Source: Candidatus Zixiibacteriota bacterium (GTDB lineage Bacteria > Zixibacteria > MSB-5A5 > JAABVY01). From it: a stretch of DNA of 39,069 nt. The position numbers were made by a program, and so were the translations under genes. Below are positions 27,819 through 32,568 of this stretch, piece by piece; position 1 is the first letter of the stretch, and each line of letters starts with the position of its first letter. The notes below the pieces were generated by a model that saw only the letters and a list, made by a program, of their open reading frames with translations, was not told the DNA's origin and made no database searches. The stretch lies in contig WJMC01000069.1 in NCBI GenBank assembly GCA_014728145.1, positions 1-39,069 of the forward strand, in the 5' to 3' direction.

Positions 27819-28799
27819 ATGTTCAGGATAATTGGTAAAACTAATATAGATTTCATCAGCCAACGCCGGTATTCCTTCGTGGTTTCCGGCATACTGCTTC
27901 TGGTCGGCCTGTTCGCCTTCTCCATGATCCTATTGGAGAAAGCCAATTTCGGCATCGATTTCTCGGGTGGTACCGAAATGGCCGGCATTTTTGAAAAACC
28001 GATAACGACCGAAGAACTGCGCACCGCGCTGACAGACGAGGGTTTGACCGGGGCCCGCATCCAGACCTACCAGATATCGGATACGACCGCCTTTTTGATC
28101 AAGATTAAGTCCGGCACCGTGACTGAGGCCGATATCGAAACCGGCGAGGTGACCGACACTGCTCTTGTGGCTGAATCCACCCTGTCTGAAAGAGTCGGCG
28201 AGAAAATCCTCTCGGTTATTAACGACAAATTCCCGGGCAACGATTTCCATATGCTGTATTCGAATATCACCGATCCCTCGATCGGTCGTGAGCTCAAGGA
28301 CCAGGCGGCCTGGATGGTGATCGCGGCGGTGATCGGAATCCTCATGTATATCTGGATCCGTTTCGATTTTCGCTTCGGTGTGGCCGCGACGTTTACGACC
28401 TTCCATGATGTATTACTGGTGCTGGGAATCATGTTCCTTCTGGGTCGCGAGGTCAGTATCCTGCTCGTTACCGCGCTTTTGACACTTGCAGGTTACTCAT
28501 TGACCGATACGGTGGTGGTTTTCGACAGGATTCGTGAAAACCTCAAAACCTTCCGCCGCAAAGGCGATTTCGTCTCCACCGTCAACCTCTCGATCAACGA
28601 GGTCCTGAGCCGTACTCTGGTGACTTCGATTACAACGTTATCGGTGGTAACCGTACTGTTCATATTTGGCGGTGAGGTGGTTCATGATTTCGCTCTGACC
28701 TTGATCTTCGGAATTATCGTGGGTACCTATTCCTCGGTCTTTGTGGCCTCGCCACTGATCGTGGTCTGGGAAAACCTGGCCCCCAAACGCTTTAAATAA
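27819..28799 (+). CDS. secF: Protein translocase subunit SecF
   Basis: The 326-residue protein is the standard partner of SecD in the membrane. It has the first segment at about 19-37, the conserved IDFSGGTEM, and later LSRTLVTSITTL, FGGEVVHDFALTLIFG and GTYSSVFVASPL, all typical of SecF. The P1-like region between (about 60-155) is of normal size, so only SecD carries the acidic insertion. An AAGGAG precedes the ATG. It is the last gene of the secDF unit and is followed by a strong terminator. I see no yajC or other Sec gene in the window. Confidence 0.97.
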   Translation: MFRIIGKTNIDFISQRRYSFVVSGILLLVGLFAFSMILLEKANFGIDFSGGTEMAGIFEKPITTEELRTALTDEGLTGARIQTYQISDTTAFLIKIKSGTVTEADIETGEVTDTALVAESTLSERVGEKILSVINDKFPGNDFHMLYSNITDPSIGRELKDQAAWMVIAAVIGILMYIWIRFDFRFGVAATFTTFHDVLLVLGIMFLLGREVSILLVTALLTLAGYSLTDTVVVFDRIRENLKTFRRKGDFVSTVNLSINEVLSRTLVTSITTLSVVTVLFIFGGEVVHDFALTLIFGIIVGTYSSVFVASPLIVVWENLAPKRFK

Positions 28800-28823
28800 G
28801 AAACTGCAAAATTGAGATAACGA

Positions 28824-28852
28824 GCCTCCGCATATGCGGAGGCCTTTTTTTT
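28824..28852 (+). terminator. Strong intrinsic terminator after secF
   Basis: GCCTCCGCAT and ATGCGGAGGC form a perfect 20-base palindrome at 28824-28843, followed by a run of eight T at 28845-28852. It lies 25 bp after the secF stop and should end the secDF transcript. Confidence 0.95.
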
Positions 28853-28892
28853 GAGAATTCAACTCTATATGATAAATGCCTAAAGATTCCTA

Positions 28893-28926
28893 TTGACAAT
28901 GATAGGGTTATTTCTATATTAGAAAT
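28893..28926 (+). promoter_or_regulatory. Leaderless promoter with overlapping operator-like palindromes
   Basis: TTGACA at 28893-28898, a 16-base spacer and TATATT at 28915-28920 form a near-ideal promoter. With the usual spacing the transcript starts at 28927, the A of the ATG, so the mRNA would have no leader and no ribosome site. ATTTCT/AGAAAT (28910-28915 and 28921-28926) forms a 17-bp palindrome over the -10, and CCTAT/ATAGG (28889-28893 and 28902-28906) overlaps the -35. Either could be bound by the ArsR-type product for self-control. Confidence 0.65.
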
Positions 28927-29502
28927 ATGACTAATGACAGGCAAATACAAGAAGTAATGGTTTTAAGTGAGGAGCAGCAGGTCAAGGCGTATGTTCATCC
29001 GACCAGAATCGTTATTGTTCAAATGCTCGCTGAACTGAAAATGACTGTCTCACAGGTTGCCAGAAAACTTGGAGTTCATCCAGCCAACCTGACTCATCAT
29101 TTTAAGCTTCTTCAAAAAGCCGGTCTTATTAGGCTGGTAGAGAAGCGGGATATCGGAAAGAACATAGAGAAGTATTATCGCGCTTCGGCAATTGATTTCG
29201 TGGTAAACACAACCCGGAGAAAACAGGTGGATAAAGTTCATCTTGCCCTCTCTGTTTTAAAGGCTGATCTCATAGAAGCTATGGGTCGAATTAAAAAACA
29301 GGATTCAGCAGATGTTCTGTCGATCTTAAACAGTGCCAGACTCAGCCAGGCCGATTTCAATTTGTTCGTGCGCAGGCTCAGGGGTCTGGCAAATGAGTTC
29401 AAACAGTGTGATTCCGATACCGGGAGAACGTACAACCTGAATGTAAGCATCTATCCGGGTGAAATTTCGAAAACCAGCAGTAAGAATATCTCAATTCTAT
29501 AA
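28927..29502 (+). CDS. ArsR-type winged helix-turn-helix regulator
   Basis: The 191-residue protein has an ArsR-like DNA-binding domain at about 20-95: VKAYVHPTRIVIVQMLAEL, the recognition region VSQVARKLGVHPANLTHHFKLLQKAGLI, and a wing VEKRDIGKNIEKYYRA. The C-terminal half (about 105-191) is helical, with no metal-binding cysteine motif typical of classic ArsR, so it may sense a different ligand. No ribosome site precedes the ATG, which fits the leaderless promoter described at 28893. The palindromes there suggest self-repression. The serine hydrolase gene follows after 46 bp and is probably under the same control. Confidence 0.85.
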   Translation: MTNDRQIQEVMVLSEEQQVKAYVHPTRIVIVQMLAELKMTVSQVARKLGVHPANLTHHFKLLQKAGLIRLVEKRDIGKNIEKYYRASAIDFVVNTTRRKQVDKVHLALSVLKADLIEAMGRIKKQDSADVLSILNSARLSQADFNLFVRRLRGLANEFKQCDSDTGRTYNLNVSIYPGEISKTSSKNISIL

Positions 29503-29548
29503 GCGATTTTCACAGTTCAATCACTTAAAAGGTATTTGGGTTTGATTC

Positions 29549-30775
29549 ATGATTAAAGAATTGATTGGAGCGCTGTCTGCTAAAATATCATCTCTGTTTA
29601 CCTCAGCAGGTTCAACTTCTGATTGGAACTGGCAACCCGTTGTAGGAAGTGATGAGGAATTGACGGAGGTTTTAGGGCAGATTTGTGACGAGTTCGATCA
29701 ACCTGCCATGTCCGTCGCGATAATAGTCGGTTCTGATATAATAGCGAAGGCGGCAAGCGGTGTTTGTGAATACGGAATGAATACTTCAGTAGACATTTCC
29801 AGTCGTTTTCATATCGGCTCAACCACAAAATCGATGACCGCGATGCTTCTTTCGGCATTGGTTGAAGACGGTAGTTTGAGCTGGGAAATGACCCTCGATC
29901 GGCTCTTGCCGGAGATTGAAATGCGGAATGAATACAAACAAGTAAGTCTGCACGATCTGCTGGTCAATCGGGCGGGGATCGTACCATTTCAGCAATTTGG
30001 TCAGGATGACCCGGAGCTGACCGAAAAAATCTGGAAAGAGATACCTTTGGGCTTCGCCGATCCTGTTCAGCAAAGGCTTGAGATGGCAAAAGTTCTGCTA
30101 AGTGCGAAACCATTCGTAAAACCCAGAACCAAAGCTGTATATTCCAATGCCGGCTGGGCAATCGCCGGTTTGATAATAGACAAAATCACCGGAAGCTCGT
30201 ATGAATCGGCTTTAAGGCATAAAATTCTTGACCCTCTGGAGATGTTCGAAACAAAAGTTGGCGGATGGCCTGCATCACCTGCAGATTTGAACCAGCCGCG
30301 CGGCCATTATCCACCCGAACAGGGTCATTATTCAAAACCCAAAGCGCAGTCGCTACAAGAAGATTATGTTCTGCCATTTTGGATGAATCCTTCCGGGGGC
30401 GTCCATTGCAGTATCAGCGATCTTGCCCTTTATGTTCAGGAGAACCTTCTTGGTCTAAAAGGAGAAGGGAAATTGCTTTCGAGAGCGAGTTATAAAACTA
30501 TTCACAGTATTCAGGTAACCGCTAAAATGAGGGAAATGTATATCGGTTTGAAAAGCGACGCGGATGCTTCCTACGGTTATGGATGGGCGGTAGTGCCGGT
30601 AGAGGGTGATCTACTAAGCATTGCTGATGGAAGCGGCGGTACGTTTTTCGCCAGGTTGATAGTATTTCCGCCTCTCAACGCAGCTTTCTGCGGGTTGACG
30701 AATTGCGGTAATGGTGCTGTGGCCCTTGATTGGGCAATCGAGAAAACTACCGGATTCGAGTGGAATAGCCATTAG
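29549..30775 (+). CDS. Serine hydrolase of the beta-lactamase class C family
   Basis: The 408-residue protein has the catalytic SxxK motif STTK (Ser91, Lys94) in HIGSTTKSMTAML, the second motif YSNAGW (Tyr198, Asn200), and a late GSGGTF in place of the third HTG/KTG motif. Members include class C beta-lactamases, D-aminopeptidases, esterases and penicillin-binding proteins, so the substrate cannot be given. No clear signal peptide is present, which argues against a periplasmic beta-lactamase. The ATG has a weak AAAAGGT upstream. It lies 46 bp after the ArsR-type gene with no promoter evident between, so the pair probably forms a regulated unit in which the regulator senses a molecule linked to the enzyme's reaction. 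Confidence 0.88.
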   Translation: MIKELIGALSAKISSLFTSAGSTSDWNWQPVVGSDEELTEVLGQICDEFDQPAMSVAIIVGSDIIAKAASGVCEYGMNTSVDISSRFHIGSTTKSMTAMLLSALVEDGSLSWEMTLDRLLPEIEMRNEYKQVSLHDLLVNRAGIVPFQQFGQDDPELTEKIWKEIPLGFADPVQQRLEMAKVLLSAKPFVKPRTKAVYSNAGWAIAGLIIDKITGSSYESALRHKILDPLEMFETKVGGWPASPADLNQPRGHYPPEQGHYSKPKAQSLQEDYVLPFWMNPSGGVHCSISDLALYVQENLLGLKGEGKLLSRASYKTIHSIQVTAKMREMYIGLKSDADASYGYGWAVVPVEGDLLSIADGSGGTFFARLIVFPPLNAAFCGLTNCGNGAVALDWAIEKTTGFEWNSH

Positions 30776-30870
30776 TTTAATCTGCTTGCATTAAGGCCTT
30801 AGACTAAATTCACACAAATTCCTGTTTCAGTGGATTTCAATCATTCACGGTTGATTTGATCTAATCAATT

Positions 30871-30925
30871 TTTTTCAGATAACTGGCGGGGGTGGTCCAT
30901 CTCATTCAGGTTAGTATCTGAAAAA
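30871..30925. repeat. 11-bp inverted repeat upstream of cydAB
   Basis: TTTTTCAGATA at 30871-30881 and TATCTGAAAAA at 30915-30925 are exact reverse complements separated by 33 bases. The arms flank a G-rich segment (GGCGGGGGTGG). They could be paired regulator sites or a long RNA hairpin at the end of the serine hydrolase transcript. Confidence 0.65.
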
Positions 30926-31146
30926 CAGTATAAAAATGATAGCATCAAACTATTCATCTGCATACGAGCGGGTCATCAATTTCGGATGTGTATCCGCCGA
31001 CTTTCAGCGACAGTTAAGATGCCACAAACCCTCGTGATTGTTTATTATTGCTGATTTCGCGGCCTGTGAATTTATATCCAATATTTTAAATTCGACCAGC
31101 GTATAGAGTTTACAGGTTGTGAAAAAAAGATTGGTGAGGTTTTTTC

Positions 31147-31175
31147 TTGACCGCTTTACTCAACAGTTGTAATCT
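31147..31175 (+). promoter_or_regulatory. Sigma70-like promoter of cydAB
   Basis: TTGACC at 31147-31152 and TAATCT at 31170-31175 are separated by 17 bases. Transcription should start near 31182, about 40 nt before the cydA ATG. Confidence 0.55.
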
Positions 31176-31221
31176 TTTCAAAGCTGACGGATGCACCATG
31201 TAAGTTAAGGCGAGCATACTG

Positions 31222-32568
31222 ATGGATCTGGAACTATTATCACGAGTTCAGTTTGGCCTGACTGTCGGATTTCATTATTTGTTCCCACCGCTTTCCATAG
31301 GACTGGGGCTTTTTCTGGTTATAATGGAGGGCACTTATCTCAAGACAAAAAACGAACTCTACCACAGCATGACCCGTTTCTGGGTCAAGATTTTCGGCTT
31401 GATATTTGCCCTGGGTGTGGCCACCGGTATCGTCATGGAATTCCAGTTCGGTACCAACTGGGCCACTTATTCGCGCTATGTCGGCGATGTTTTTGGAAGC
31501 GCTCTGGCGGCTGAGGGAATTTTCGCCTTTTTCCTGGAATCCGGGTTTTTGGCGATCCTGCTGTTCGGCTGGGACAAGGTGTCGAAGAGAATGCATTTCA
31601 TTGCAACTGTGCTGGTGGCGTTCGGGGCGCATTTTTCTGCCATCTGGATCGTGGTCGCCAACAGCTGGCAACAGACCCCGGCCGGGCATCATATTGTCGG
31701 TACCGGCGATACGGCCCGGGCCGAGATCCTCGATTTCTGGCAGGTTCTCTTTAACCCCTCGTTTCTGGACCGTATCAGCCATGTTTTCATGGGATGCTGG
31801 CAGGCGGGGGCTTTTTTCGTCCTGTCGGTGTCAGCATTTTACCTGCTACGCAACAAGCATCGCGAGTTCGCCAAAGCTTCCATGAAGATAGCGGTCGTGA
31901 TAGCCGTGGTATCATCATTATTACAGCTCGTGACCGGTCATTCCTCGGCCCATACGGTAGCACGTACCCAGCCGGCTAAATTAGCCGCCTACGAGGGACA
32001 TTTCCCGGCTGAGGCTCCGGCCGGATTGTACCTGTTCGGGTGGGTCGATGAAGAGAATCAGAAAACCACCGGGTTTGAGATTCCGGGATTTCTGAGTTTT
32101 CTGGTGCACTGGGACAGCGAGGCACCGGTGACCGGGTTGAATGCCTTCGCTGAGGAGGACAGGCCTCCGGTCAATATCGTCTTCCAGTCCTACCACCTGA
32201 TGGTGGCGATCGGTATGCTCTTGATCCTGATTTCGCTTATGGCGGCGGTGAAATGGAAGCTGGGCAGCCTGTTTACCACCCGCTGGTTTCTGACAGTACT
32301 TGTGTTCTCTGTTCTTCTGCCACAGCTTGCCAATCAGCTGGGATGGTTTTCGGCCGAAGTCGGACGACAACCCTGGGCGGTATACGGGCTTTTGCGCACC
32401 GAGGATGCGGTCTCGGTTTCGATCGGAGCGGGGCATGTAATCTTTTCTCTGATCCTGTTTATGCTAATTTACACCTTGCTTTTTGCGCTGTTCATCTATC
32501 TTCTCAATGAGAAAATCCAGAAAGGTCCCGAGGGGATCGAAACTTCGGAGGGAAAACTGGCGGCATGA
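31222..32568 (+). CDS. cydA: Cytochrome bd oxidase subunit I
   Basis: CydA holds the three haems and the quinol site of the bd-type terminal oxidase, which reduces oxygen to water at the membrane. The 448-residue product keeps the key residues: haem ligands His18, His187 and Met327 (matching E. coli His19, His186 and Met393), quinol-loop Lys253 and Glu258 in KLAAYEGHF, and Glu98 and Glu106 of the proton path. GRQPW is present near the end. It is shorter than the E. coli protein (522) because the Q-loop is short, so it belongs to the short-Q-loop type. About nine membrane segments are seen. The ribosome site is weak (AAGGCGAG). The stop overlaps the cydB start by four bases. Confidence 0.97.

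Follow-up and report, generated by a model that had tools for sequence, protein, structure and literature searches.

A putative paired operator that holds the start codon of an ArsR-like regulator gene in a regulator-serine hydrolase gene pair of a Candidatus Zixiibacteriota bacterium

Background

In ArsR/SmtB metalloregulators, the metal-binding cysteines are conserved. An ArsR-type winged helix of known structure is also found in PH1932 of Pyrococcus horikoshii (PDB 1uly), an archaeal protein. Repressor genes without a leader have been described in other contexts: for the cyanobacterial repressor CvkR, leaderless translation is combined with a conserved binding motif, and Tn1721 tetR and lambda cI are named alongside it in the discussion of that report (PMC9938897). 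Leaderless genes are widespread in bacteria, with a mean of 3.9% in those Spirochaetes genomes that have them (Zheng 2011, PMC3160421), and genes adjacent to a -10 have been described in Deinococcus-Thermus (PMC12340547). Our literature search by title and abstract, which covered few subscription papers, returned no ArsR/serine-hydrolase operon, no leaderless gene with ArsR operators and no leaderless autorepressor with a start-codon operator matching the gene pair described here, and nothing on leaderless genes in candidate phylum WOR-3.

We analysed a 39,069-nt stretch of DNA from a Candidatus Zixiibacteriota bacterium (contig WJMC01000069.1, assembly GCA_014728145.1), the whole of which is called the window below. 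A previous sequence-only reading had pointed to a leaderless, self-repressed ArsR-type gene with palindromes on its promoter, controlling the serine hydrolase gene that follows. The gene pair is ordinary in kind; its unusual point is a start codon that lies inside a conserved putative operator.

Results

The gene announced as ArsR-type is real (Table 1): the domains HTH_5 (41.5 bits, cut-off 22) and HTH_20 (49.9 bits, cut-off 27) are both above their Pfam cut-offs, and the best solved relative by sequence is PDB 1uly (E 4.5e-12, residues 8-152). In an AlphaFold2 model built on a 5-row alignment the mean pLDDT was 45, the winged helix alone being partly confident. An identity as metalloregulator was rejected, as the protein scores 42 bits against NCBIfam family NF033788, under the cut-off of 55, and its only cysteine, residue 161, is not conserved among relatives. 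The serine hydrolase that was said to follow is equally real, with PF00144 at E 4.4e-38 and both the SxxK and the YxN motif; against the NCBIfam class C beta-lactamase model it reaches 57.5 bits, far under the cut-off of 415. The two genes are separated by 46 nt in which no terminator was found, and a terminator-like hairpin after the upstream gene sets the pair apart.

Table 1 Features of the regulator-hydrolase gene pair and its promoter region in the window
Feature	Position	Strand	Remarks
Terminator-like hairpin (intrinsic type) and T run	28824..28843	+	8-pair stem, 7 G-C, then CTTTTTTTTG
-35 hexamer TTGACA	28893..28898	+	perfect match to -35
Putative operator unit O1, ATAG-GGTTATTT-CTAT	28902..28917	+	relatives: TTAG-N8-CTA[A/T] at same place
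19-bp palindrome, TATTTCTA-TAT-TAGAAATA	28909..28927	+	over -10; read as O1/O2 junction
-10 hexamer TATATT	28915..28920	+	spacer to TTGACA 16 nt
Putative operator unit O2, TTAG-AAATATGA-CTAA	28919..28934	+	holds start codon; 17 bp from O1
Predicted +1, A of ATG (leaderless)	28927..28927	+	seventh base after -10; same geometry in L031
ArsR-like winged-helix regulator, 191 aa	28927..29502	+	HTH_20 3e-13, HTH_5 1.2e-10
Serine hydrolase, beta-lactamase (PF00144) superfamily, 408 aa	29549..30775	+	HIGSTTK at residue 88, YSN at 198

A scan of 84,980 species genomes yielded five loci, one in Spirochaetales (L031), one in Neomarinimicrobiota (L032) and three in WOR-3 (L033-L035), with regulators of 46-51% identity for the four that could be aligned in full. 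Searching by group at E 1e-20, we found a regulator match in 1/132 genomes of the own phylum, this being the window itself, in 1/245 of the Neomarinimicrobiota group and in 9/147 of the WOR-3 group, where four matches (G134, G135, G136 and G260) are close and five are no more than distant paralogues. Four of 296 Spirochaetes genomes matched, namely G132 with L031 and three with reversed gene order; at E 1e-15, the class of G738 returned the same three reversed-order carriers among 48 genomes. Because this spread is scattered and the own phylum has no other carriers, the gene pair was probably gained horizontally. Neither a comparable site nor a hydrolase neighbour was seen for a 31% homologue in genome G055 (L002). 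For viral contigs, an 18-bp start-region pattern matched 65 stretches, and a protein relative was present in 0/58 candidate stretches, so that the pattern matches were left out of account; 11 plasmid records matched, all below 60% identity and only one with a query coverage of at least 80%, and phages gave none.

The regulator has a serine hydrolase from one common subfamily as its neighbour at all nine loci where the DNA is present, these being the window and L031-L035 with the regulator first and L129-L131 with the hydrolase first (a further regulator-first locus, L124, ends inside the regulator at a contig edge). The hydrolases compared share 39-51% identity with that of the window, for which the closest match in 58 related genomes searched (in G047) reaches 34-35%.

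The promoter TTGACA-16-TATATT of the sequence-only reading stands, with 11 of 12 consensus letters and the top rank among four promoter-like sites within 28400-31500. Since shuffled sequence holds on average 5.1 promoter-like sites of any quality, such a match is not evidence by itself. The ATG at 28927 is base 7 after TATATT, the usual place of +1, so that the predicted transcript start falls on its A, and no SD-like sequence precedes it; both points agree with what had been claimed. An SD-like 4-mer lies near the candidate start of 59/100 long ORFs of the window genome, compared with 31/100 in a shifted control. SD use in this genome is moderate, and because many of its genes show no SD-like 4-mer, the missing SD is weak evidence for a leaderless start. 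The region also contains a 14-nt direct repeat, 86% identical (TCTATATGATAAAT at 28864-28877 and TCTATATTAGAAAT at 28913-28926, 49 nt apart), which is possibly due to chance.

The palindrome over the -10, given before as 17 bp, is 19 bp long and appears to be the junction of two units. Taken alone it is only mildly unusual, since 68 out of 2000 dinucleotide-shuffled versions of 28849-28948 have arms of at least 8. We consider it real because its block is conserved across phyla: an alignment of the start region of five loci gave the common block TTCTAWATTAGAAAWATGRCTAAT, in which 21 of 24 columns are invariant, ATG included, with 8/45 invariant columns in the upstream flank and 0/21 downstream. 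The second palindrome, said to lie over the -35, had to be dropped. Only CCTAT-N8-ATAGG (28889-28906) is present there, with 5-bp arms of which shuffles of the same 100 bp average 2.1, and the relatives are without it. The comparison with related genomes, which had been suggested as a check, therefore retained the -10 block but not the -35 palindrome.

In place of these two palindromes we propose an operator of two 16-bp units, 17 bp apart. Two [TA]TAG-N8-CTA[AT] dyads at exactly this spacing, with the ATG inside the second, are found in 6/6 regulator-first loci that can be read at this place (the window, L031, L032, L033, L034 and L124; L035 is masked at the site). The best copies of the unit read TTAGAA-N4-TTCTAA. 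At the place of O1 the five relatives have TTAG-N8-CTA[A/T], and the O1 of the window is a poor copy, with ATAGGG as its left half. In O2 the ATG occupies positions 9-11, its G replacing the T at position 11, and the start codon looks as if fitted into an operator. A search pattern, TTAGRAAWNNDNCTAA, was drawn from these same sites and is hence informative on uniqueness, not on presence. It has a single match per genome in G000 (the window genome), G134, G738, G711 and G723, each at the regulator-hydrolase operon, and 5 to 6 matches each in G132, G133, G135 and G260; reversed-pattern controls gave 0 to 11 matches per strand.

The position of the promoter relative to this block varies. The second unit begins 26-27 bp after TTGAC in the window and L031, whose promoters set +1 on the ATG, while in L032, L033, L034 and L124 it begins 48 bp after TTGAC, the promoter sitting 21-22 bp further from the ATG, and an SD-less leader of about 22 nt is predicted. 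Leaderless expression, as put forward before, is hence best predicted for the window and L031 and does not extend to the other four relatives. Because these four predict a leader, what is conserved is the block of operator and ATG without SD, and not the zero-length leader.

Genome-wide, we counted pairs of TTGAC-(17-19)-TANNNT and ATG against a reversed-pattern control. In the window genome, an assembly fragmented into 255 contigs, there were 57 pairs against 15 in the control at a spacing of 5-7 nt, 30 against 22 at 12-14 nt and 43 against 12 at 22-24 nt. The 57 pairs at the shortest of these spacings mark candidate leaderless genes. In 484 kb of unselected contigs (C1-C40; contigs chosen for containing hits were excluded from every count), four ORFs lay at 5-7 nt compared with about 1.6 per 3-nt bin, a small excess. 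In 300 kb of the WOR-3 genome G134 (L153-L167), where such promoters were counted before the ATG of ORFs of at least 80 aa, 21 ORFs (20 distinct) lay at 5-7 nt compared with about 3.8 per 3-nt bin elsewhere, a strong excess. These counts make leaderless starts plausible in the window genome; in G134 such starts are apparently common, which points to frequent leaderless genes in WOR-3.

An autorepressed operon could also be read from a leadered transcript without SD, the ATG being on +1 only incidentally. The leaders of about 22 nt predicted ahead of the same ATG in WOR-3 and Neomarinimicrobiota fit this reading, which we nevertheless regard as unlikely, given that no upstream promoter of comparable quality is listed in the window, that the leaderless geometry recurs in L031, which belongs to another phylum, and that the window genome shows an excess of pairs at the leaderless spacing.

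The three hydrolase-first loci of the Spirochaetes (L129-L131) bear on which sequence is the operator. Upstream of the hydrolase gene, here the first, all three have a single TTAG-N8-CTAA dyad (TTAGRAAAAATTCTAA type), 27 bp from where TTGAC begins, and MTN is absent from the N terminus of their regulators. This movement of the unit to the promoter of whichever gene is first is the best evidence for an operator of the operon, and along with the linkage at nine of nine loci it supports by comparison the self-repression and hydrolase control that had been suggested. It also makes it rather doubtful that the central palindrome TTCTA-N3-TAGAA, the site of the sequence-only reading, is the operator and the outer half-sites are accessories: none of the three loci was found to have a TTCTA-N1-4-TAGAA-type site, even though TTCTA-N3-TAGAA ranks as the longest perfect palindrome of the window's promoter region and its core TTCTAWATTAGAA occurs once in G000. 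A second exact core site in G133 lies inside another sequence, has no start codon after it and was taken as chance. L130 and L131 are flagged with internal stops, and L130 contains Ns, which may reflect damage to these two genes or poor assembly. In the same two loci (L130 near 227, L131 in reverse complement near 207) the dyad is extended into long arms, e.g. GCCGACATTAG/CTAATGTCGGC, the outer parts of which differ in sequence but stay complementary, which a simple repressor site does not explain.

Such complementarity would suit an RNA element, i.e. a leader hairpin that acts on translation in place of a DNA operator, and TTCTAWATTAGAA would fold as a hairpin within the leaders of about 22 nt. 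We hold this to be very unlikely, since the window and L031 have most of the block ahead of the predicted +1, the left arm is at the expected -10/+1 in L129-L131, and the product of the adjacent gene is a DNA-binding protein.

The opening residues of the regulator, Met-Thr-Asn, are coded by O2. Residues 1 and 3 do not vary among 5/5 aligned proteins, and the codon for N3 is identical in all five loci, as is the case for only 9 of 70 invariant residues. By eye, no other in-frame ATG, GTG or TTG was seen near the N terminus of L031, L033 and L034, which fixes their start codon. Translation from the internal ATG at 28957 behind a leader of about 30 nt, though preceded by a purine run and close to where the regulators of the hydrolase-first loci begin, is the least credible reading in view of the invariant residues 1 and 3 and of the missing in-frame start there in L031, L033 and L034.

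Discussion

From the promoter geometry, the paired conserved sites, the gene linkage and the relocation of the site, we infer binding, repression, ligand release and the 5' end of the transcript as follows. Regulator and hydrolase would be transcribed together from TTGACA-16-TATATT as a two-gene operon. The ArsR-like winged-helix repressor, as a dimer, would occupy O1 and O2, with consensus TTAGAA-N4-TTCTAA, which together span the spacer, the -10, +1 and the first three codons; one bound dimer per unit would block RNA polymerase at -10/+1 and silence both genes until a ligand releases the repressor from the DNA. In this genome the transcript would most likely begin on the AUG and be translated leaderless. 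Site position, relocation with gene order and near-uniqueness support this mechanism, and we consider it likely that 28927-30775 is an autorepressed regulator-hydrolase operon with two operator units, leaderless in the window.

More tentatively, and with somewhat less than even confidence, operator and translation start may be regarded as one overprinted element. In the regulator-first form, the start codon would have been built into the second of two operators in tandem. The DNA site would fix MTN and preclude an SD, keeping the gene SD-less or leaderless as the gene pair passes between phyla, while the promoter moves by about 22 bp relative to an unchanging block of operator and ATG and the operator stays at the front of the operon despite the switched gene order.

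If true, this would be a compact case of a transcriptional operator dictating where and how translation begins, in an arrangement kept by several phyla whose proteins are about 50% identical. Nature would here also offer three forms to compare (leaderless, with a short leader lacking an SD, and in reversed order with an SD leader) when the persistence of leaderless starts is studied. The operator would moreover be defined for a family of ArsR-like/serine-hydrolase pairs that was not found described in the literature searched.

Compared with known systems, the regulator has the same ArsR-type winged helix as PH1932, which leaves its C-terminal 40 residues unmatched. With the ArsR/SmtB metalloregulators it shares HTH_5 and HTH_20, but it stays below their NCBIfam cut-off and, with its single unconserved cysteine, is without their conserved metal-binding cysteines. 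The hydrolase has PF00144, SxxK and YxN in common with the class C beta-lactamase/DD-peptidase superfamily, though below the class C cut-off. The distant WOR-3 paralogues L119, L122, L123, L125 and L126 have two dyads as in the window, paired, of TTGAATATT type and just after TTGACA..TATAAT, but the leader of these genes is an ordinary one with an SD, and the conserved gene downstream is a different one. Lambda cI, Tn1721 tetR and CvkR (PMC9938897) are leaderless repressors, as predicted for the regulator of the window, and belong to other protein families; the regulator gene differs from them in that its start codon sits inside the proposed operator.
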